IMG/VR virus record: IMGVR_UViG_3300028024_000105
Span: 1-64,000 of that record
DNA length: 64,000 nt
From: a virus
Reading direction: 5' to 3' (one strand)
The notes beneath the pieces were generated by a model. That model was not told the origin of the DNA. It made no database searches and saw nothing but the letters and a program-made list of their open reading frames with translations. Made by a program: the position numbers and the translations under genes. Each line of letters starts with the position of its first letter. The stretch's first letter is position 1. Below, piece after piece: positions 3,666 to 52,998 of this stretch.

Positions 3666-4571
3666 GTGAGGCATTACTGCACGCTCTTCAACATGGCGTA
3701 TGCGGCCAAGGGGCTCGCGCTCTACCAGAGCCTCGACCGCCACTCCGTCGATCCCTGGACGCTCCATGTCCTGCCGATGGATCGGAAGACCTACGACTTC
3801 CTCTGCTTCATGAAGCTGTCCGGGTACGGGAACATGGTTCTGCTGGACCCGGACGAGGTCATGAACGGCCAGTTCTCGAACTCGGTGCGCGGGCGAGACA
3901 TCGCCTACACCTGCTTCTCGGCGACCCCGTGGTTGATGCGGGTCGTGGCAGGCTGGAATCTATTGGAAGAGATCACGTATCTGGACTCCGATCTCTACTT
4001 CTTCTCGGACCCGATGAAAATCCATCGGCAGATCAACTTCGACAAGGACGTCGCCATCGTCCCGCATCGGTTCCTGAAGCACGACGTCGAACGTCTCCGA
4101 CCGAGCGGACAATTCAACGTCTCGTGGGTCACGATCAGAACTGACGGCGGCACGGGCAGGCGCATCCTGAACCAGTGGACGGAGCAGGTTCTCGCCAAGT
4201 GCGACCGCGAATCTTGCGGCGACCAGAAGTACCTCGACACCTGGCCCGACCAGCTCCACAAGAGGCTGCACATCCTCGAGGACCACGGCATCGGTGTGGC
4301 GCCGTGGAACGCGGACCGCTACAAGTTCGTGCCGGGTCCCGGGATCTTCAACACGGACCTGCCCTCGCAAGACCGCCCCGAGCCCGTCGTGTTCTACCAC
4401 TTCCACGAGCTGAAGCGGCGCGGACCCAACGACTACTACCTGACCGGCTACAAGCTGCCGGACGCCTGTGTCGACCTGATCTACAAACCCTACCTCGAGC
4501 AGCTCGAAGGCTTCGAGAAGATCATCGAGGAGTATCAGAGGAGCAGACCATGCTTAAAGTTTACTACCTGA
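3666..4571 (+). CDS. GT-A glycosyltransferase (GT8-like)
   Basis: 301 residues. ITYLDSDLYFFSDP near residue 105 is the classical DXD motif region of GT8-type retaining glycosyltransferases, preceded by an N-terminal half typical of that fold (CTLFNMAYAAKGLALYQSL). HFHELKRR near residue 245 fits the second metal-binding region of the family. The start is a GTG placed five bases after the promoter box. The 3' end overlaps the next gene by 22 bp. Confidence 0.78.
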   Translation: MRHYCTLFNMAYAAKGLALYQSLDRHSVDPWTLHVLPMDRKTYDFLCFMKLSGYGNMVLLDPDEVMNGQFSNSVRGRDIAYTCFSATPWLMRVVAGWNLLEEITYLDSDLYFFSDPMKIHRQINFDKDVAIVPHRFLKHDVERLRPSGQFNVSWVTIRTDGGTGRRILNQWTEQVLAKCDRESCGDQKYLDTWPDQLHKRLHILEDHGIGVAPWNADRYKFVPGPGIFNTDLPSQDRPEPVVFYHFHELKRRGPNDYYLTGYKLPDACVDLIYKPYLEQLEGFEKIIEEYQRSRPCLKFTT

Positions 4572-5494
4572 CCGCCGAGCAGCTCGCGACCGTGGGCTAT
4601 CACAAGATCGACCCGATGCGCTTCAACAACGTGCAGGAAGTCGCGAGCGCCGAAGAGGCCGACCTGGTCGTCATCCCTCTGCCGCTCCGCGACATCATCG
4701 ACGGCAACGGAACCGGCGTGTTCCTCGACAACGAGGGGCTGGCCCGGATCATCAAGGCGTTCAACCTGGACGAGCGGCGCGTCACTGCCTACGACTGCAG
4801 CGACTGGTACGAGGACTACGAGCTGCACCCGAACTGCCTCTTCATCCGCTGCAACACCAAGAAGTGGTACCTACAGAAGATGCCGCGCACGATCTCGTGG
4901 CCGTGGCCGGTCGAGAACTGGGCCGAGGTTGTGCCGTTGCCGCCGGGCGGCTTCAAGTACGACGTCAGCGGCCACATGTGGATGTCCAGCCACGTCCGGC
5001 AGTCCGCCTGCGACAGCGTCAAGGCGACGTTCGGCGACCGCGCCGACATCGTCACCCGGAAGGAGTTCTGGGGCTACCTCGAGTACCAGAAGCCCGAGGA
5101 AGCCATGGCGATGAAGGCGGCCATGAAGCGGTCGATGCAGGAGAGCCGGATCGCGCTCTGCCCGTCGTCGATCCACGGCGTGTTCCCGTATCGCTTCTTC
5201 GAGGCACTGTCGTCGGGCCGGGTCCCGGCCCTGTTCTGCACGGACCACGTGTTCCCCTGGGAGAACAAGATCGACTACAGCTCCTGCTGCGCGCTCTTCC
5301 GCGAAGAGGACGCCCCAAACGCCGGTCGACTGATCAAGGAGTGGCTGTCGAAGCACTCCGACGAGGAGATCATCGAGATGGGCAAGCGGGGCCGGGCCTA
5401 CTGGGAGCAGTGGCTCGACCGGTCGAAGTTCGAGGATCTGAAGACCGTCGCCGTCGAGGAAGCTCTCGGGCGCGACGGCCTGTTGAGGTCGTAG
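4550..5494 (+). CDS. Exostosin-like glycosyltransferase (GT47-like)
   Basis: 314 residues. The central part RIALCPSSIHGVFPYRFFEA followed by a GRVPALFCTDHVFPW segment matches the nucleotide-sugar-binding region of exostosin-family enzymes. The ATG at 4550 has AGGAGCAG just upstream and overlaps the previous gene. It closes a co-oriented block of glycosyltransferases. Confidence 0.72.
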   Translation: MLKVYYLTAEQLATVGYHKIDPMRFNNVQEVASAEEADLVVIPLPLRDIIDGNGTGVFLDNEGLARIIKAFNLDERRVTAYDCSDWYEDYELHPNCLFIRCNTKKWYLQKMPRTISWPWPVENWAEVVPLPPGGFKYDVSGHMWMSSHVRQSACDSVKATFGDRADIVTRKEFWGYLEYQKPEEAMAMKAAMKRSMQESRIALCPSSIHGVFPYRFFEALSSGRVPALFCTDHVFPWENKIDYSSCCALFREEDAPNAGRLIKEWLSKHSDEEIIEMGKRGRAYWEQWLDRSKFEDLKTVAVEEALGRDGLLRS

Positions 5495-5495
5495 C

Positions 5496-5684
5496 ATGCC
5501 CGCGCTTCCGCACACCGGCAGGCGCGACTGCTGGTGCGAGCCGAAGGTCGCCCAGAACTGTCCCATCTGCAAGGGCAGCACGGCGAACCCGGCATGCTCG
5601 CGGTGTGATGGCAAGGGCATCGTCCCGCCCTACGACGACGGCTCCGTTCTCGTGATTCACCGGAAGAATCGAATCCGGAGATAG
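5496..5684 (+). CDS. Small zinc-finger protein, DnaJ-type CXXC pairs
   Basis: 62 residues with CWC, CPIC, and CSRCDGKG. The last is the CxxCxGxG-like repeat of DnaJ zinc fingers. It begins two bases after the glycosyltransferase stop, so it is translated in the same operon. Function unknown; a small metal-binding adaptor is the most one can say. Confidence 0.55.
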   Translation: MPALPHTGRRDCWCEPKVAQNCPICKGSTANPACSRCDGKGIVPPYDDGSVLVIHRKNRIRR

Positions 5685-5686
5685 GG

Positions 5687-5693
5687 GTCCAAG
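5687..5693 (+). promoter_or_regulatory. GTCCAAG element before a start codon
   Basis: GTCCAAG, five bases, GTG at 5699. The same spacing recurs before seven other genes in the window (see findings). Confidence 0.4.
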
Positions 5694-5698
5694 TGAAC

Positions 5699-6421
5699 GT
5701 GCACATCATCGTTCCCTCGTGCGCGGCCTACTCCGACGCATGGATTCCCTTCTTCACATTCCTCTACCGGTTCTGGCCTGGATGTCCGTATCCCGTCACG
5801 CTCGTGACGGACACCGTGCCACCCGAGCTGCGCGATTACGAACCGGCCAAGCCGACCGGCCTGCACGTCGTGGGCGCCGACAAGGGCTGGTGCAAGAACT
5901 TCCTATACGCCATCCAAGCCATCAAGCAGCAGCCCGAGTTCGTCCTCATGCTTCAAGAGGACTTCTGGTTGTCGGCGCCGCCGGACACGACCTACATCGA
6001 GCGCGCGCTGATGATCATGCGCGGAGATCCAACAGTCGCGTGCTTCCGGATCTACCCGTGCCCCGGCGCGGACAAGTACATCGGCTGGGCCGATCACGGC
6101 GAGATCAGCCTGGACGCGGCGTACCGCGTGAGCTGTCAAGCCGGGATCTGGAGGACCAGCGAGCTGGTGAAGATCCTGGAGCGCCTCGACACTCCGGCCG
6201 ACTTCGAGATCAAGGGTACGGAGTTCTTCAGGACCGAGCGCCCGGCTGCGCGATTCCTCTCGGTCAACCGCACGGAAGACCCCAACGCGTGGCCCTTCCA
6301 GTACATCTGCACGGCCATCGTACGAGGCCAATGGCTACCCGGTGCCCTCGAGTTCGCGCACTCCCAAGGGGTGCCCGTGGACATGTCGAGACGTTCCGTC
6401 ATGCGCGGTCCAAGTGTGTAG
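5699..6421 (+). CDS. Glycosyltransferase-like protein
   Basis: About 240 residues. It opens with a Rossmann-like HIIVPSCAAYSDAWIPFF strand and carries FVLMLQEDFWL near residue 85, which looks like the acidic donor site of GT-A enzymes that act on LPS or teichoic glycans. GTG 5699 is preferred over the in-frame GTG at 5693 because it keeps the five-base distance to GTCCAAG. Acceptor unknown. Confidence 0.6.
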   Translation: MHIIVPSCAAYSDAWIPFFTFLYRFWPGCPYPVTLVTDTVPPELRDYEPAKPTGLHVVGADKGWCKNFLYAIQAIKQQPEFVLMLQEDFWLSAPPDTTYIERALMIMRGDPTVACFRIYPCPGADKYIGWADHGEISLDAAYRVSCQAGIWRTSELVKILERLDTPADFEIKGTEFFRTERPAARFLSVNRTEDPNAWPFQYICTAIVRGQWLPGALEFAHSQGVPVDMSRRSVMRGPSV

Positions 6422-25100: not shown

Positions 25101-25798
25101 TCCTGGGAGGCACGCTCGACCTGGACGCCGAGGAGCCCTTCATCCAGCGTGGCGAACTGAAATGGCCGGTCTCCGATGCTACTCTTGGATTGCTGCCCGG
25201 CGCCAACGGCGTGCTCGGCGAACGTCCGGCGGACGTCCGGCAGATCCGCAAGGACACCAAGGACTGCCAGCTCTGCGACCTGCGTGGCTCCTGCAAGGCA
25301 CCCGTGCCCGTCGACCCGGGCCAGCTCGACATCATGGTGGTGGCCGAGGCGCCCGGGAAGAACGAGGACAAGGTCGGCAAGCCGCTGATCGGAGACTCCG
25401 GAAACGTGCTCTGGCCTGAGCTGGAGCGTCTCGGTGTCTCTCGCGAGATGGTCTACGTCTCGAACTCCGTCAAATGCCTGCCCCCGGCGAAGACCAAGCC
25501 CACGCCCGAGCAGATCGACGGTTGCCCGTGGCTCGAGAAGGAGATCAAGGCCATCAAGCCGAAGACCATCCTGGCGCTGGGCAACTCCGCGCTCTACTAC
25601 TTCACGGGGAAGGAGAAGGGCATCATGGAGATGAACGGCAAGACGGAGTGGAACACCAAGGCGAACGCGTGGGTGACCTTCTGCATCCACCCGGCCAATC
25701 TGCTGTACGCGCGCGAGGCCGAGGAACTGGCGTCCCGGGAGCTGATGTTCCGCGAGGCGTTGACCGAATTCGCGCGGGTCATTTTTCAATTTGCATGA
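22172..25798 (+). CDS. DNA polymerase III alpha fused to uracil-DNA glycosylase
   Basis: 1208 residues. Residues 1-280: PHP domain (DLHVHSSFSLLDGA, VTDHGNVDGW). Residues 350-500: catalytic palm with ARGSVGGSLV and PDIDIDIED, the aspartates that bind Mg2+. Fingers include LWRPGPI; a helix-hairpin-helix-like segment (NKKVIKALFYCGAFD) follows near 890. The beta-binding and OB domains of cellular DnaE appear reduced. From about residue 1030 a family 4-type uracil-DNA glycosylase begins: CQLCDLRGSC, VVAEAPGKNEDKVGKPLIG, YVSNSVKCLPP and IHPANLL, with cysteines for an iron-sulfur cluster. The replicase of this phage can thus excise uracil itself. Confidence 0.9.
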   Translation: MLTDADFTDLHVHSSFSLLDGAANPEQLLEASQRLGRKHMAVTDHGNVDGWLRFQKAAKKMDVKPIFGIELFMLENFEERHTGKPKNLHLTAIAKTEQGLGKLVQACGFANMEGMGKSGYAARPFLPMDYPIVNKWPGDVIIMTGCASSPFWNAADGIELLGYYADAFKGDLYAEIMPNEEFELQKTINASAMQAASYFGIKPVVTTDIHYISPEDSEFHEVVIGLSQKYMTWSNPKRWKFESHNNYVHNITQLVESLMRMGLTEEQVRQMVFSTSEIAEKTIHKIHQPTIKLPPVIGDISEEEERERFLQLVLDGLRTRGVANTPGYLERVAAEYDIIAPKGFVRYMLMVWDVVRWAKSHGILIGPARGSVGGSLVAFALGITDIDPIKYRLWFERFIDPERIDMPDIDIDIEDRNRHLVEQYLKEKYGQWNVAHVSTFASMLGKMALKDVGRLFEVPLAEVQKMCNCIIHAHESDVRAHLTIQDTIASGDATAVEFQKKYPHVVHFAQKLEGQVRGCGIHAAGFVISDEDLRTSARAYLVTRRDKVTINWDKNDAESMGFVKLDLLGLQTLSAVAEASRLIEARHGRKIDFTQLPLDDPKTYEMIQRGDTVTCFQINTPSMQRYCAKLKPENFEHLAAITALWRPGPIQSGAADMYAKCKNGLEPVHYASDAFKSITEISYGQMIYQEQVAQMLMKLAGYTYAQADKVRKIVSKKGGVQAWDDEEPKFVAGCEKIGLLNPDQAHELWQSSKMFALYAFNRAHSVGYGMLAYWTAYLKANYPAEWLCSFLNYGNADREDLKTGEINRDVALREALRSGIEILVPDINESDVIWTVATTKHNKPALRVGLQDIKFVGETAVEEIQKLKSRTRQIETLEKFVLEGVDRRCCNKKVIKALFYCGAFDQIISPDIYDRWVKQYDQMYDTMEKPKKRAELLATAVPEGEKQEIIARERNIFLRFDPLAIDGANAAERMAKILGGTLDLDAEEPFIQRGELKWPVSDATLGLLPGANGVLGERPADVRQIRKDTKDCQLCDLRGSCKAPVPVDPGQLDIMVVAEAPGKNEDKVGKPLIGDSGNVLWPELERLGVSREMVYVSNSVKCLPPAKTKPTPEQIDGCPWLEKEIKAIKPKTILALGNSALYYFTGKEKGIMEMNGKTEWNTKANAWVTFCIHPANLLYAREAEELASRELMFREALTEFARVIFQFA

Positions 25799-46776: not shown

Positions 46777-47050
46777 GCGTCCTACGAAACGAGCGAGAAG
46801 CCGACGTAACCCGGGGCTGCACCTGTACGTAGCTGCGCACCGTACAGCAGGGCCTGCCAATACCGGGGTACATCGCTCAAAGACAGCTCGTCGGGCGCGA
46901 ACGCGGGCGAAAACGGCCGTAGCGTGACAGCCGGAGAGACGGCAAAAATTCGCCCTGGTGGTGGCTTTCTGCTGCTTCACCACCTTCGCCGCGTTGGAAG
47001 CCGAGCAGCGTCACGACGCGGACAGGGTTGGAATCGTGGAAACGGAGTAG
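46777..47050 (+). other. 294-base gap, possible leader RNA
   Basis: Starts with GCGTCCTAC at 46777-46785 that is not followed by a start codon. Hairpins CTGTACG/CGTACAG (46823/46841) and GGTGGTG/CACCACC (46957/46978). No credible protein gene until 47056, so a structured leader or small RNA is possible. Confidence 0.4.
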
Positions 47051-47055
47051 TGGTC

Positions 47056-47250
47056 ATGGGCGTCCCATCAACCGATGCCAAACCACCGTGCAGCGAATGC
47101 GGGAAGCCCTCCATTTCGATGTGTCCGTACTGCAAGCTCTACGTCCATCAGGGTTTCGGCCTACACAACGGCAACTGCAGCGGAAAGCACGAGGCCAAGT
47201 GCTCCGGGGCTCGATGGTCCCGCGATTCCGACCAGTCCAAGCAGGTGTGA
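47056..47250 (+). CDS. Small zinc-finger protein (B-box/HIT-like Cys-His set)
   Basis: 64 residues. PCSECGKPSISMCPYCKLYV, then H, NCSGKH and KC give a regular C2..C2..H..C series. GGAG upstream of the ATG. Its last codons contain the GTCCAAG element of the next gene. Confidence 0.55.
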   Translation: MGVPSTDAKPPCSECGKPSISMCPYCKLYVHQGFGLHNGNCSGKHEAKCSGARWSRDSDQSKQV

Positions 47251-48173
47251 TCCATCTCCAGCGTCCGGACGACTTTCTGAAGGACTACGACGAGTCCAAG
47301 CACCCGCGCGACGAGCGCGGACGTTGGGCATCGGGCGGCAGCGGAGGGGCATCGAGTCCGGACATCTCGCCTGGCTCGCGCACCCTCCCTTCCGTCATGC
47401 GGGAGGCGAGCGGACACCCCAACAAGGTGGACATCGAGCGCCTGGGCGACGAGACCACGAGCGTCGGCACGGTCTACAAGGCCACCTTCAAGGACGGCAG
47501 CAAGGCCGTCTACAAACCCGAGAAGGGGAACGGCTACACGACCACGGGCTTGGACGAGCAGGACAACGAAGTTCAGGTCAAGCTCCGGCGCGACATGGAC
47601 ACCAGCGTGCCCCAGTACAAGAAGGAGCTGGCCACGATGGAGATTGACCGGGAACTCGGATTCAACCGAGTGCCGCACGTTGAGGTCGTGGATTACGGCC
47701 ACGGGCTCGGGCATGCGCAGGCGTTCATCGAGGGCGAGGTCGCGGCCAATGTCGACTACAACACGGTGTCCAACGACGTGTTGACGGGCGCGAGCATGCA
47801 GCAGGTCGCAGCCCTAGACATGATCACCGGGAACACGGACCGGCACTTCGGAAACTTCATGCTGGGCCGGGACGACGATCAGTGGTACGCCATCGACAAC
47901 GGTCTGACGTTCCCCGACAAGAACGGCCAGTTCAACAGCGTGCCGGTCCGGACGTTGGGCAAGGGCGGTGTCTCGATCCACGAGAGCGTGAAGGCGTCGC
48001 TCGCGAAGTTCACGCCGGAGAAGCTCGACGTCATCATGTCGCGCAACGGTATCGGCAAAGCCGCGCGCGAGCAGGCGAAGGCTCGCCTGAACATATTGAA
48101 GACCAAGAGTACCTGGACGGGCGTGGCGCATGAGATGATCGCCTACAACCCCTCAAATGGAATTGAGTTCTGA
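47247..48173 (+). CDS. PI3/4- or HipA-like kinase with N-terminal leader peptide
   Basis: 308 residues. Start is GTG five bases after GTCCAAG. Residues 18-36 hold KHPRDERGRWASGGSGGAS, a leader type known at the ends of phage head-associated and toxin-like proteins. The kinase part has SKAVYKPEKGNGY (nucleotide-binding Lys), MEIDRELGFNRVP, MITGNTDRHFGNF (catalytic loop D..N) and WYAIDNGLTF (metal-binding Asp). Substrate unknown. The metalloprotease two genes on carries the same leader type, so both may be packaged or exported together. Confidence 0.7.
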   Translation: MIHLQRPDDFLKDYDESKHPRDERGRWASGGSGGASSPDISPGSRTLPSVMREASGHPNKVDIERLGDETTSVGTVYKATFKDGSKAVYKPEKGNGYTTTGLDEQDNEVQVKLRRDMDTSVPQYKKELATMEIDRELGFNRVPHVEVVDYGHGLGHAQAFIEGEVAANVDYNTVSNDVLTGASMQQVAALDMITGNTDRHFGNFMLGRDDDQWYAIDNGLTFPDKNGQFNSVPVRTLGKGGVSIHESVKASLAKFTPEKLDVIMSRNGIGKAAREQAKARLNILKTKSTWTGVAHEMIAYNPSNGIEF

Positions 48174-48180
48174 GGGCACA

Positions 48181-48435
48181 ATGCTTCGAGGCGTTCGAGT
48201 CAAGGTCCTGGAGTCACGGGGGCAGCGCACCCTCTCCGAGTACATGCTCGCGGGAGACCGCGCAGTCCTGACGTCCGGCAAGCCCATCCCGACCCTTTCG
48301 ATCTCCGCTGCCGATGCCGCCCTAGCCCCCGGCCTGGTCGCCCGCGTCTACACGCCCGACGACGGCAAGTGGTTCCTCCGTGCGCTGCTCGTCACCTTCA
48401 AATCCGGCTCTCGGATGCTGGCCGAGCGCTTCTAG
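48181..48435 (+). CDS. Unknown 84-residue protein
   Basis: GAGG upstream of the ATG. Mostly beta (GVRVKVLESRGQRTLSEYML), no family recognised. Lies between the two candidate effectors. Confidence 0.5.
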   Translation: MLRGVRVKVLESRGQRTLSEYMLAGDRAVLTSGKPIPTLSISAADAALAPGLVARVYTPDDGKWFLRALLVTFKSGSRMLAERF

Positions 48436-48455
48436 CCCGACCGGTCCAAGGGTAC

Positions 48456-49271
48456 GTGATCCATTTCACGTATCCGGACGGCTACTTCGAGAAGCGGCGC
48501 GACCTGACCATCGGAAAGGTCGGTTACTGGGACGAACAGCAGCATCCGCGCGCCGAGGACGGCAAGTTCACGGACGGATCTGGCGGCGCCACGTCGAGCG
48601 ACGGTCCGGGTATCCCGAGTTCGGCCGCAGGTGCGGCGCTCGTGAGTCGGGCCGGACAGATGCCCAACTACGAGAGCGTCGCCGACTTTGCGGCGGCTCG
48701 AGAGTACATGGGCAAGCTGGGCACGAACCTGCTGGTGCTGAACGGTGCGAATCCCTCAGACGTTCGTGTCGCGATGCAGTCGACACGTGACTTCATTGAG
48801 AAGACCGGCCTGTCGCCCGAGCGTCTGTACGTGACAACCGACCAATTTATGGTCGACCGCTTCGGCGCACCCACGGCAGACTTGGCTCAGGCTCTGTACG
48901 ATCCGCAGACCCGTGCTGTCATGTCGTCGAAGCTGACCGCACTTTCGGCGAAGCCTACTCAGCCCGGCGGATTCACCATCGGCGAGGACGGATTCAACGA
49001 GGCGCAGACGGCTCTGTGGCACGAGTTCGGTCACTCCGTGCACTTCACGGCCCACGTGGGTTCGCCTGGTCGAGTCCCGCCCAATTTCCGAGGGGCGGTA
49101 GAATCGCATTTGGTTGGAACGTTCAAGGCTCAGGGCATGTCAGACTACGGAGTGACCATGCGAGCCGAGTTCGTGGCCGAGTACGTGTCCGGCCGCATGA
49201 TGGGCCGCAAGTTCGGACCGGCGGTCCACGAGGCGTATATCCGATACGGTGGCCCGAAGTTGGGAGACTAA
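48456..49271 (+). CDS. Zincin-type metallopeptidase with N-terminal leader peptide
   Basis: 271 residues. Start is GTG five bases after GTCCAAG (48444-48450), reading GTG-ATC-CAT exactly as in the kinase gene. Residues near 27-46 carry QHPRAEDGKFTDGSGGATSS, the same leader type. LWHEFGHSVHF near residue 187 is the HExxH zinc site; a downstream Glu in MRAEFVAEYVSG may be the third ligand. Likely an effector protease acting on a host or virion protein. Confidence 0.7.
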   Translation: MIHFTYPDGYFEKRRDLTIGKVGYWDEQQHPRAEDGKFTDGSGGATSSDGPGIPSSAAGAALVSRAGQMPNYESVADFAAAREYMGKLGTNLLVLNGANPSDVRVAMQSTRDFIEKTGLSPERLYVTTDQFMVDRFGAPTADLAQALYDPQTRAVMSSKLTALSAKPTQPGGFTIGEDGFNEAQTALWHEFGHSVHFTAHVGSPGRVPPNFRGAVESHLVGTFKAQGMSDYGVTMRAEFVAEYVSGRMMGRKFGPAVHEAYIRYGGPKLGD

Positions 49272-49529: not shown

Positions 49530-50381
49530 ATGACCATCGAAGTTCGAACCAAGGCACAATTCGAGGCCGCGCTCAAGATTCCCAACTCCATCATCGACAT
49601 CCTGGAGGGCATCTACGAGCTGGTGACGTACGGAAGCGAGGCTCCGTTCATCCGGCTGTTCGGCAAGGCCGAACTGACCGTCGAGGCGCGGGGATCGTCC
49701 CAGCCGCGCGTCGAGGCGTGGGGATCGTCCCAGCCGCGCGTCGAGGCGTGGGGATCGTCCCAGCCGCGCGTCGTGGCGTGGGAATCGTCCCAGCCGCGCG
49801 TCGAGGCGTGGGGATCGTCCCAGCCGCGCGTCGAGGCGTGGGAATCGTCCCAGCCGCGCGTCGTGGCGTGGGAATCGTCCCAGCCGCGCGTCGAGGCGTC
49901 CGGTTTCGTGCAGCTTTCGCTTCTCGGCAAGATCGTCGCGAAAGCTGCAGCGAAGGTCGCCGTGCTGATCGAGGGTGACGGCCCGAAGGTCACGGGCGGG
50001 AAGCAGATCCGCCGCCAGCTCTTCAAGAACGGGAAGGGATGGTGCGAGTATTACGGAGTCCCGGTCAAGGCAGGGAAGGCCATCGTGTTCAAGGCCCTCG
50101 ACAAGGACCTTCGGAGCAGTCACGGTCTCGTCTATCCGGTCGGCGCGACCGTCAAGAGCGACGGCTGGAACAAGAACGAGTGCGATCAGGGACTCCACTT
50201 CATCCCTACGCCCAAGATGGGATACGAGTTCGCGCCGGAGGCCGAGCGGTTCGTCGCGTGTGAAGTCGCCGTGAAGGACATGCTCGTCTTCTCCACCGGC
50301 TCGTACCCGAACAAGGCGAAGGCTCCGGAGTGCAAGGTCCTCTACGAGTGCAACGACGACGGCGAGGAGATCAAGAAGTAG
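49530..50381 (+). CDS. Repeat protein with DUF7666-like C-terminus
   Basis: 283 residues. After 50 residues come seven copies of a 10-residue repeat (consensus VEAWGSSQPR) that should form a short beta-solenoid. The C-terminal half (WCEYYGVPVKAGKAIVFKAL and ECDQGLHFIPTPKMGYEF) matches a domain seen in actinophage and other phage proteins with such repeats. Function unknown; repeat number is likely to vary between strains. It is a single-gene transcription unit between two terminators. Confidence 0.65.
   Translation: MTIEVRTKAQFEAALKIPNSIIDILEGIYELVTYGSEAPFIRLFGKAELTVEARGSSQPRVEAWGSSQPRVEAWGSSQPRVVAWESSQPRVEAWGSSQPRVEAWESSQPRVVAWESSQPRVEASGFVQLSLLGKIVAKAAAKVAVLIEGDGPKVTGGKQIRRQLFKNGKGWCEYYGVPVKAGKAIVFKALDKDLRSSHGLVYPVGATVKSDGWNKNECDQGLHFIPTPKMGYEFAPEAERFVACEVAVKDMLVFSTGSYPNKAKAPECKVLYECNDDGEEIKK
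49681..49899 (+). repeat. 30-bp tandem repeats, seven units plus a partial
   Basis: Units start at 49681, 49711, 49741, 49771, 49801, 49831 and 49861, nearly identical at DNA level; GAGG/GTGG and GGGG/GGAA are the main variants, giving Glu/Val and Gly/Glu changes. Confidence 0.95.
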
Positions 50382-51525: not shown

Positions 51526-51549
51526 TCATGTGAACAGAAAGGAGATCGG

Positions 51550-52998
51550 ATGAACTGGTTCGAGGTCGACAAGAAGGGCCTAGCCAATCTGCTGGGACGC
51601 CGGGGCAAGGCGTTCCTCGTGCACGAGCTGGTCCAGAACGCCTGGGACACGAACGCGACGCGCGTCGACGTGAACCTCGTGTCGCTGCCCGGCCGCAAGC
51701 TGGCCCGGCTGACCGTGGAAGACGACGACCCGGAGGGCTTCAAGGACATCTCGCACGCCTTCACGCTCTTCGCGGAGTCCGCCAAGAAAGGCGACGCCGA
51801 GAAGCGTGGGCGCTTCAACCTTGGCGAGAAGCTCGTCCTCGCGCTCTGCAAAGAGGCGAAGATCACGACGACGACCGGAGGGGTCAAGTTCAGCGACAAG
51901 GGGCGCCAAGTGATCGGCGCCACGACCATGTCCGGTTCCATCTTCGAAGCCCTGATCCCGCTGACCGACGCCGAGTTGGGCGAGATGACCAAGTCGGTCG
52001 CGTGTCTGATCCCGCCCGCCGGGATCGCCACGTTCTACAACGGCGACGCGCTCCTGGAGCGCATGCCGCTCCACGAGTTCGAGATCACGCTCCCGACGGA
52101 GATCGCCAACGCCGAGGGCCAGCTCCGGCGGACCGAGCGCAAGACCAAGGTGCAGGTCTTCGATCCGCAGGATGGAGAGCAGGCCAGCATCTACGAGATG
52201 GGCATCCCCATCGTCGAGACCGAGGACAAGTGGCACTACAACGTGCTGCAGAAGGTCCCGCTCAACATGGATCGGGACAACGTGACGCCGCACTACCTCA
52301 AGACGGTGCGCGCGGCCGTGCTGAACGCCATGCACGAGAAGCTCACGCCCGAGGACGCCAGCACCCCGTGGGTGCGCGAGGGCGCGGCCGACGAGAACGC
52401 CACCAAGGAAGCCACCGAGAAGGTGATGGACCTTCGCTTCGGGAAGAAGCGCGTCATCTTCGACCCCTCCGACCTGGAGGGCAACAAGCTCGCCGTGTCC
52501 GAAGGCTACACCGTGATTCCGCCCCGGTCCCTGAACAAGGACGAGTGGGACAACGTCCGCAAGCACGACCTAGCAAAGCCCGCCGGGCAGGTCACGCCGT
52601 CGCCCAAGCCCTACTCGCCCGAGGGCGACCCGCTCAAGATCCTGCCCGAGCTGGAGTGGACCGACCCCATGAAGCGGGTGGCCGAGTACGCGCGCTGGCT
52701 CGCGCAGGAGCTGCTGGGGAACAACCGCCTGCACGTGATCATCGCGCGCGAGGCAACGTGGCCTTACGGCGCGACCTACGGCATGGATCAGTTGACCCTC
52801 AACCTGGGCCGACTGGGGCACGACTGGTTCAAGTCGGTCGGCCAGCACACGGATCGCTTGCTGATCCATGAGTTCGGGCACCACTACGCGGCGGACCACC
52901 TGTCGAAGGAATACTACGATGCCCTGTGCAAGCTCGGCGCGAAGATGACGGCCTTGGCCCTGCAGTACCCGGAGGTCTTCAAGGGTTTCCGGATCTGA
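51550..52998 (+). CDS. GHKL ATPase fused to a zincin domain (rIIA-like)
   Basis: 482 residues. HELVQNAWDTNATRVDV (N box), TVEDDDPEGF (G1-like) and GRFNLGEKLVLA (G2) mark an Hsp90/MutL-type ATPase at residues 20-110, as in T4 rIIA. The last 100 residues contain LLIHEFGHHYAADHL, an HExxH zinc protease site. The combination in one chain is unusual. It has its own GTAAC promoter and a strong terminator. Confidence 0.72.
   Translation: MNWFEVDKKGLANLLGRRGKAFLVHELVQNAWDTNATRVDVNLVSLPGRKLARLTVEDDDPEGFKDISHAFTLFAESAKKGDAEKRGRFNLGEKLVLALCKEAKITTTTGGVKFSDKGRQVIGATTMSGSIFEALIPLTDAELGEMTKSVACLIPPAGIATFYNGDALLERMPLHEFEITLPTEIANAEGQLRRTERKTKVQVFDPQDGEQASIYEMGIPIVETEDKWHYNVLQKVPLNMDRDNVTPHYLKTVRAAVLNAMHEKLTPEDASTPWVREGAADENATKEATEKVMDLRFGKKRVIFDPSDLEGNKLAVSEGYTVIPPRSLNKDEWDNVRKHDLAKPAGQVTPSPKPYSPEGDPLKILPELEWTDPMKRVAEYARWLAQELLGNNRLHVIIAREATWPYGATYGMDQLTLNLGRLGHDWFKSVGQHTDRLLIHEFGHHYAADHLSKEYYDALCKLGAKMTALALQYPEVFKGFRI

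Follow-up and report, generated by a model that had tools for sequence, protein, structure and literature searches.

The open reading frame at 51550-52998 on the plus strand of the window (the 64,000 nucleotides analysed, positions 1 to 64,000 of the IMG/VR viral record IMGVR_UViG_3300028024_000105) encodes a protein of 482 residues. The full record is 96.8 kb long and carries genes for a DnaB-like helicase, DNA polymerase III alpha, an RNA ligase and an integrase. The frame opens with an ATG preceded by AAAGGAG, in which the Shine-Dalgarno sequence AGGAG (51540..51544, plus strand) can be read from the sequence and the GGAG ends 5 nt upstream of the start codon. No promoter-like site was seen near the frame. 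Homologs and an AlphaFold2 model support the gene, and the product consists of two domains and a linker, namely a GHKL ATPase with an S5-like region and a C-terminal zincin. Some other genes of the window were noted as well. A PI3/PI4-kinase-like protein (47028-48170, Pfam E 9e-7) with HPRDERGRWASGG adjoins a second HEFGH protein (48369-49268, plus strand, HEFGHSVHF), which carries the tag HPRAEDGKFTDG. The tag common to the two suggests related, perhaps virion-linked, proteins. Farther along, the plus-strand frame 49530-50378 encodes several tandem 10-residue repeats of the SSQPRVEAWG type followed by a DUF7666 domain. The DNA polymerase III alpha gene (22172-25795, plus strand) encodes a C-terminus, CQLCDLRGSC...KPLIGDSGN, that resembles a family-4 uracil-DNA glycosylase by eye.

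The GHKL ATPase domain of the Bergerat fold covers residues 1-170 (51550..52059) and is recognized by Pfam HATPase_c_3 at residues 24-111 (E 1.1e-6, better than the curated cut-off) as well as by matches to Hsp90 and topoisomerases. The three sequence boxes of the GHKL superfamily are present. The N box (ExxxN) reads E26-L-V-Q-N30 (51625..51639) and holds the catalytic Glu and the Mg-binding Asn, the G1-like box (DxxxG) is D58-D-D-P-E-G63 (51721..51738), and the G2 box (GxxxxG(E)K) is G87-RFNLGE-K94 (51808..51831). Residues 171-265 (52060..52344) form an S5-like transducer region resembling the middle domain of Hsp90, as judged from structure alignments with TRAP1 and topoisomerases that extend through it to residues 269-351. 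This region contains the loop QKVPLNMDRDNV (52249..52284) with the motif QKVPLNxDRDNV, which sits before helix 247-264 much like DLPLNVSREL in HtpG. In yeast Hsp90, the arginine of that loop contacts the gamma-phosphate of ATP. By motif and position, R242 (nt 52273-52275) is thus a putative arginine finger. A helical segment, a small alpha/beta module and an extended linker follow at residues 266-370 (52345..52659) in the AlphaFold2 secondary structure. Among the remaining profile matches, the NCBIfam sacsin-like ATP-binding domain was weak and below its cut-off, and Pfam HSP90 (PF00183) was absent. A sequence search of the PDB also hit protein tyrosine phosphatases over residues 292-355 at E values of 0.09 or poorer; we regard these hits as fortuitous.

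The predicted structure of the N-terminal part is confident. Based on an alignment of 87 full-length sequences (mean column identity 37%), AlphaFold2 modelled the whole chain with a pLDDT of 93.9 and a pTM of 0.81. The top Foldseek matches of this model in the PDB were TRAP1/Hsp90 (E 2e-13). In VIA-align, TRAP1 (4ivg, Z 16.7, rmsd 6.3, 298 aligned residues) and the topoisomerase II ATPase-transducer (7zbg, Z 16.4, rmsd 3.9, 239 aligned) scored alike, and GyrB and topoisomerase VI-B were also level with Hsp90. Because Hsp90 and topoisomerases match about equally, the region is best described as a GHKL domain with an S5-like module, and the fold alone is no proof of an Hsp90. The middle domain alone gave no match in profile comparisons with HtpG, GyrB, MutL and rIIA (the MutL set being poor, with untrimmed starts), so that the relation to Hsp90 rests on structure and motif. 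The top Foldseek match could be taken to mean that the protein is a maturation or folding factor, i.e., an Hsp90-like chaperone-protease for phage proteins. We consider this very improbable, as the C-terminal dimerisation domain of Hsp90 is absent, with the zincin occupying the C-terminus, and the 104 immediate neighbours of the family show no virion-gene association beyond scattered tail and scaffold matches.

The zincin domain spans residues 371-482 (52660..52995). A Pfam search of the whole protein returned no match in the C-terminal half, yet AlphaFold2 on this part alone (residues 354-482, 129 residues) reached a pLDDT of 95.9 and a pTM of 0.88. The motif HEFGHH (residues 440-445, nt 52867-52884) lies within HEFGHHYAADH (residues 440-450, 52867..52899), where conservation and the Wss1-like spacing point to H440, H444 and H450 as zinc ligands and E441 as the catalytic residue. 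The pattern HExxHx5H arises in 0.1% of shuffles of the protein, and the motif is not due to chance. In the model, the domain is compact and HEFGH stands where helix 432-443 ends. The HExxH helix packs on a small sheet and a third ligand lies downstream, as is typical of the zincin superfamily. The structure prediction that the earlier note proposed as a check on both domains was confident, and the refuting outcome named there, a fold without a zincin helix, did not occur. The chain stops about 30 residues beyond the zinc site.

The best structural match of the zincin is Saccharomyces cerevisiae Wss1 (5xbv, Z 8.9, rmsd 3.2, 108 aligned; 5xbn, 8.7), followed by S. pombe Wss1 (7.9), selecase (7.4), BepA (6.8) and SPRTN (6.7), which puts Wss1 only moderately above other zincins such as selecase and BepA. 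Foldseek E-values were weak, with 0.04 as the best. Wss1 aligns as HELTHNLFGPH, with a 0/+4/+10 ligand spacing identical to that of HEFGHHYAADH. Weak Pfam matches among the 87 zincins were most commonly to WLM (30), then to YgjP (9, best 4e-6) and SprT (6). The zincin encoded at 51550-52998 has no WLM match itself, and the best family member (E 8e-4) stays short of the curated Pfam cut-off. With both the HExxHx5H signature and the Wss1 fold in evidence, the modelled zincin is complete and of the Wss1 type. A metzincin, considered via myroilysin (E 8e-4), was rejected for lack of a Met-turn and because Wss1 is the better structural match; relative to the metzincin pattern HExxHxxGxxH, the Gly position is variable and no Met is conserved after H450.

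The proximity to Wss1 and SPRTN raises the prospect of a protease that repairs DNA-protein crosslinks or removes roadblocks for phage replication, a viral analogue of these enzymes with its own ATP-driven clamp. Both proteases are among the closest solved folds, the ligand spacing is that of Wss1, and GHKL-S5 clamps commonly act on DNA. Additionally, the Methylibium RPME01 copy sits among helicase, dUTPase and methyltransferase genes. However, folds near the zincin also include those of YgjP, selecase and M48-type proteins, none of which are crosslink proteases, a search of the 482-residue protein for a DNA-binding element or tail identified none, and the genes around family members are mostly hypothetical. 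A dedicated repair role therefore seems rather unlikely.

Both active sites are strongly conserved. Invariant residues (87/87 in the alignment) comprise E26, L27, Q29, N30, D33, G63, G87, K94 and G129 in the ATPase domain, then E216, G218, P220, Q234, R242 and G298, and finally H440, E441 and H444 at the zinc site. D58 (85/87), G92 (86/87) and H450 (86/87) are nearly so, and E93 is kept in 80/87. Relatives were retrieved with two separate search patterns. One was the N box and the other IHEFGHH, replaced by HEFGHHY when genomes were scanned. Sequences recovered by one pattern were therefore unselected for the other site. About half of the relatives lack the HEFGHH wording and were thus not chosen for their HExxH, yet all of them keep it. 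Comparisons of close pairs mostly gave a dN/dS of about 0.1-0.2 in every domain, indicating purifying selection. Invariant active sites in 87 diverse members together with low dN/dS show that neither half is a relic. The earlier note had proposed that a single chain combines a GHKL ATPase with an HExxH zincin, and this is borne out by two sites that are intact and invariant across the aligned relatives. One set of close sequences stood out, with dS between L020 and L022/L023 being 1.76 for the ATPase part and 0.14 for the zincin, a difference that would fit an exchange of one half by recombination.

The family to which the protein belongs has well over 100 members, found in viruses and plasmids. 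A single-sequence scan of IMG/VR yielded 16 full-length relatives and an alignment-based scan 121 relatives, 80 of them retained. Scanning 84,980 prokaryotic genomes gave 29 loci, a few of them with more distant proteins at 24-28% identity (L109-L112, e.g., from a Rhodoblastus MAG, Picosynechococcus and Synechococcus). Full-length homologs are 39-55% identical and more distant members range down to 22%. At least 11 viral contigs carrying the family exceed 200 kb. Among 50,697 phage records, the sole match was LR745208.1, an uncultured phage of 485 kb (52%); no cultured phage in this set has a member, and querying with distant members or with the zincin alone added nothing. The gene was found on six plasmids, and full-length copies occurred in 1/290, 1/397 and 0/295 genomes in samples of three phyla with the centre genomes left out. 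Presence mostly on viral contigs, on few plasmids and rarely in bacterial genomes indicates a family that is chiefly viral and mobile. The two domains are indeed rare in one chain, as the earlier note held, if one looks at cellular genomes and cultured phages; overall, the size of the family and the two further phage types described below qualify this view. Apart from the generic ATPase match, the family is unnamed in Pfam, PHROGs, NCBIfam and PADLOC.

A few sequences depart from the full-length form. The family-profile search of bacterial genomes also returned 165-residue proteins with HELAHLKEKDH. A broken copy in a bacterial genome (L108) has IHELAH in another frame, a broken copy in Candidatus Desulfobacillus denitrificans (L098:8001-9329) is truncated before the zinc site, and the copy in L080 is also cut short. 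A zincin-free subfamily was considered on account of these three copies and rejected, as they look frameshifted or truncated. The Rhodovastum plasmid RHOApd (L116:5773-13452), which carries a phage tail gene, has a relative with a SIR2-HerA pair, annotated as anti-phage, at a distance of about 3 kb.

Another reading is a resident-element defence or superinfection exclusion system, in which the GHKL part would sense infection and activate a toxic protease. The integrase gene in the phage carrying the 51550-52998 frame, the weak PADLOC match between the GHKL part and TmtA and the relative close to the SIR2-HerA pair are consistent with such a role, and VcSduA provides a precedent with its GHKL part proposed as the switch of a nuclease (PMC12137116). 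Against this, the family is rare in bacterial genomes and resides mostly on phage contigs, several of them huge, which makes a resident defence unlikely.

The gene neighbourhood of the family is variable. Clustering of the reading frames around about 100 relatives found the largest shared neighbour in 14 loci, on either strand, which reads like a serine recombinase by eye. No Pfam or PHROG family recurred in more than three members among the 104 immediate neighbours, and most neighbours are hypothetical. The lack of a conserved neighbour suggests that the protein probably acts alone, as a single-gene system. An accessory, patchy distribution of this kind, with many carriers being large phages, would suit a counter-defence protease, as suggested in the earlier note, in which a host defence protein would be recognised or unfolded by the ATPase and cut by the zincin. 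Iyer et al. 2021 place rIIA (GHKL with a variable C-terminus) and patchy phage SprT/ArdC zincins in host conflict, treating rIIA-type GHKL proteins and zincins as separate proteins in the main text (PMC7824862). However, no link to a defence target and no anti-defence neighbours were found, the PADLOC match is confined to the GHKL part, and relatives occur on plasmids too. Counter-defence might be the function, even though we regard it as somewhat doubtful.

Two further types of phage GHKL proteins were found near family members. The first is a protein of about 480 residues near the gene in six loci (L006 at 4448-5950 on the plus strand, L020, L022, L023, L027 and L087). Its N box comes after a G2-like box, and the EExxH helix at its end can be aligned with the zincin (hhalign 43%, E 2.5e-4), so that it looks like a circularly reordered GHKL protein with an EExxH pseudo-zincin. 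Three neighbours match PHROG 6077 and most likely belong to this group. Homologs occur in 65 phage records, mainly Pseudomonas aeruginosa phages of the YuA/M6 kind, and the copy of phage AN14 is annotated as 'hydrolase, metallopeptidase'. The second, which we call type C, has 438-446 residues and occurs near L021 (4073-5386, plus strand) and in L088 (5020-6357, minus strand), in both cases with a canonical N box, a G2 box, a DRxxI/V loop and a C-terminal HEVAH or HEEAH. Its GHKL part is present in 110 phage records, sometimes annotated as RIIA and often without a zincin; of five isolates read, four lack HExxH and Moorella phage MTATph1 (L174:2986-4326) has HETLH. No type C copy was found in the 96.8 kb piece that carries the 51550-52998 frame, in a search run without a positive control. 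Taken together, the family, the type of about 480 residues and type C indicate at least three related types in which a GHKL module is paired with a zincin-like tail.

GHKL-S5 modules drive topoisomerases, mismatch repair, chromatin ATPases, chaperones and defence nucleases. They dimerise on ATP, as in Hsp90, MutL, MORC and topoisomerases, and most of the clamps act on DNA. Since nucleases attached to such modules are thought to be ATPase-controlled, an ATP-gated protease is the most economical reading for the fusion with a zincin, and we consider an ATP-regulated protease likely. Both active sites being kept in more than 100 relatives points the same way, to a probably ATP-controlled protease of a family not recognized before. 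Upon ATP binding, the N-terminal parts would dimerise into a clamp around the substrate. Through movement of the S5 region and ATP hydrolysis, the substrate would next be presented or released to the pair of zincin domains, which would cut it. Less certainly, the substrate might be a protein bound to DNA, given that DNA-protein-crosslink proteases have the nearest zincin folds and that most GHKL-S5 clamps work on DNA; we propose this part tentatively, at somewhat below an even chance. The phage could benefit by having host proteins (defence, nucleoid or crosslinked) cleared from DNA. We favour, at slightly less than an even chance, the combined reading of an ATP-gated, stand-alone zinc protease of phages and mobile elements that probably cuts DNA-bound proteins. 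More speculatively, and with clear doubt, a topoisomerase- or Hsp90-type clamp might encircle DNA or a client and pass bound proteins to a built-in Wss1-like protease, serving large phages as a one-protein weapon or repair machine. It would also belong to a wider phage superfamily in which a neighbouring partner can combine a degenerate zincin with an ATPase of reordered layout. With a protease driven by it, the GHKL-S5 engine would gain a new output. The favoured ATP-gated metalloprotease is directly testable and offers a candidate route for large phages to remove host proteins.

Known systems resemble the protein in parts. Hsp90, TRAP1 and HtpG have the GHKL site, the S5-like domain and the PLNxxR loop in common with it across their N-terminal and middle domains. 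Wss1/WLM proteases, as well as SPRTN and YgjP, likewise have a compact zincin with HExxHx5H followed by an F/Y-containing helix; the zincin described here differs from Wss1 in being fused to an ATPase and falling below the Pfam cut-off, with no further Wss1 regions found. The closest relatives by profile are other phage GHKL proteins, some annotated as RIIA. Type C proteins (e.g., of Escherichia phage 4MG_173 and Pseudomonas phage Ab18) share the GHKL, S5 and post-S5 modules, aligning over residues 19-324 with the DRDNV loop in register (hhalign 98%, E 6e-14), whereas most of the copies read lack a zincin at the end, and L021, L088 and MTATph1 carry a different HExxH tail. T4-type rIIA likewise combines GHKL with a C-terminal domain of its own in a phage protein, and its IAPSREAL motif resembles the arginine loop. 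T4 rIIA lacks HExxH, however, and its hhalign match is weak (41%) and restricted to the GHKL part (residues 19-166), with KVP40 RIIA ranking 7 among BFVD structure matches. Of the rIIA/Hsp90-like label initially given to the ATPase, the Hsp90 half is therefore upheld by structure, equally with topoisomerases, and a specific link to rIIA is weak. A fusion of GHKL with a zincin, metallopeptidase, WLM, SprT or Wss1 domain was undescribed in the open-access papers searched. The nearest parallels in architecture are paraMORC3, a GHKL-S5 protein with a C-terminal RecB-type nuclease thought to be controlled by the ATPase (PMC2292703), and VcSduA of type I-D Shedu, which joins GHKL-S5 to a PD-(D/E)xK nuclease and for which variants of both sites were tested (PMC12137116). 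Both share the order of an N-terminal GHKL-S5 module and a C-terminal effector, their effector being a nuclease of the RecB or PD-(D/E)xK type and the one predicted here a zincin. As judged from sequences and models, the proteins described here are a real, conserved and unnamed family of this GHKL-S5-effector type, with a protease as the effector.
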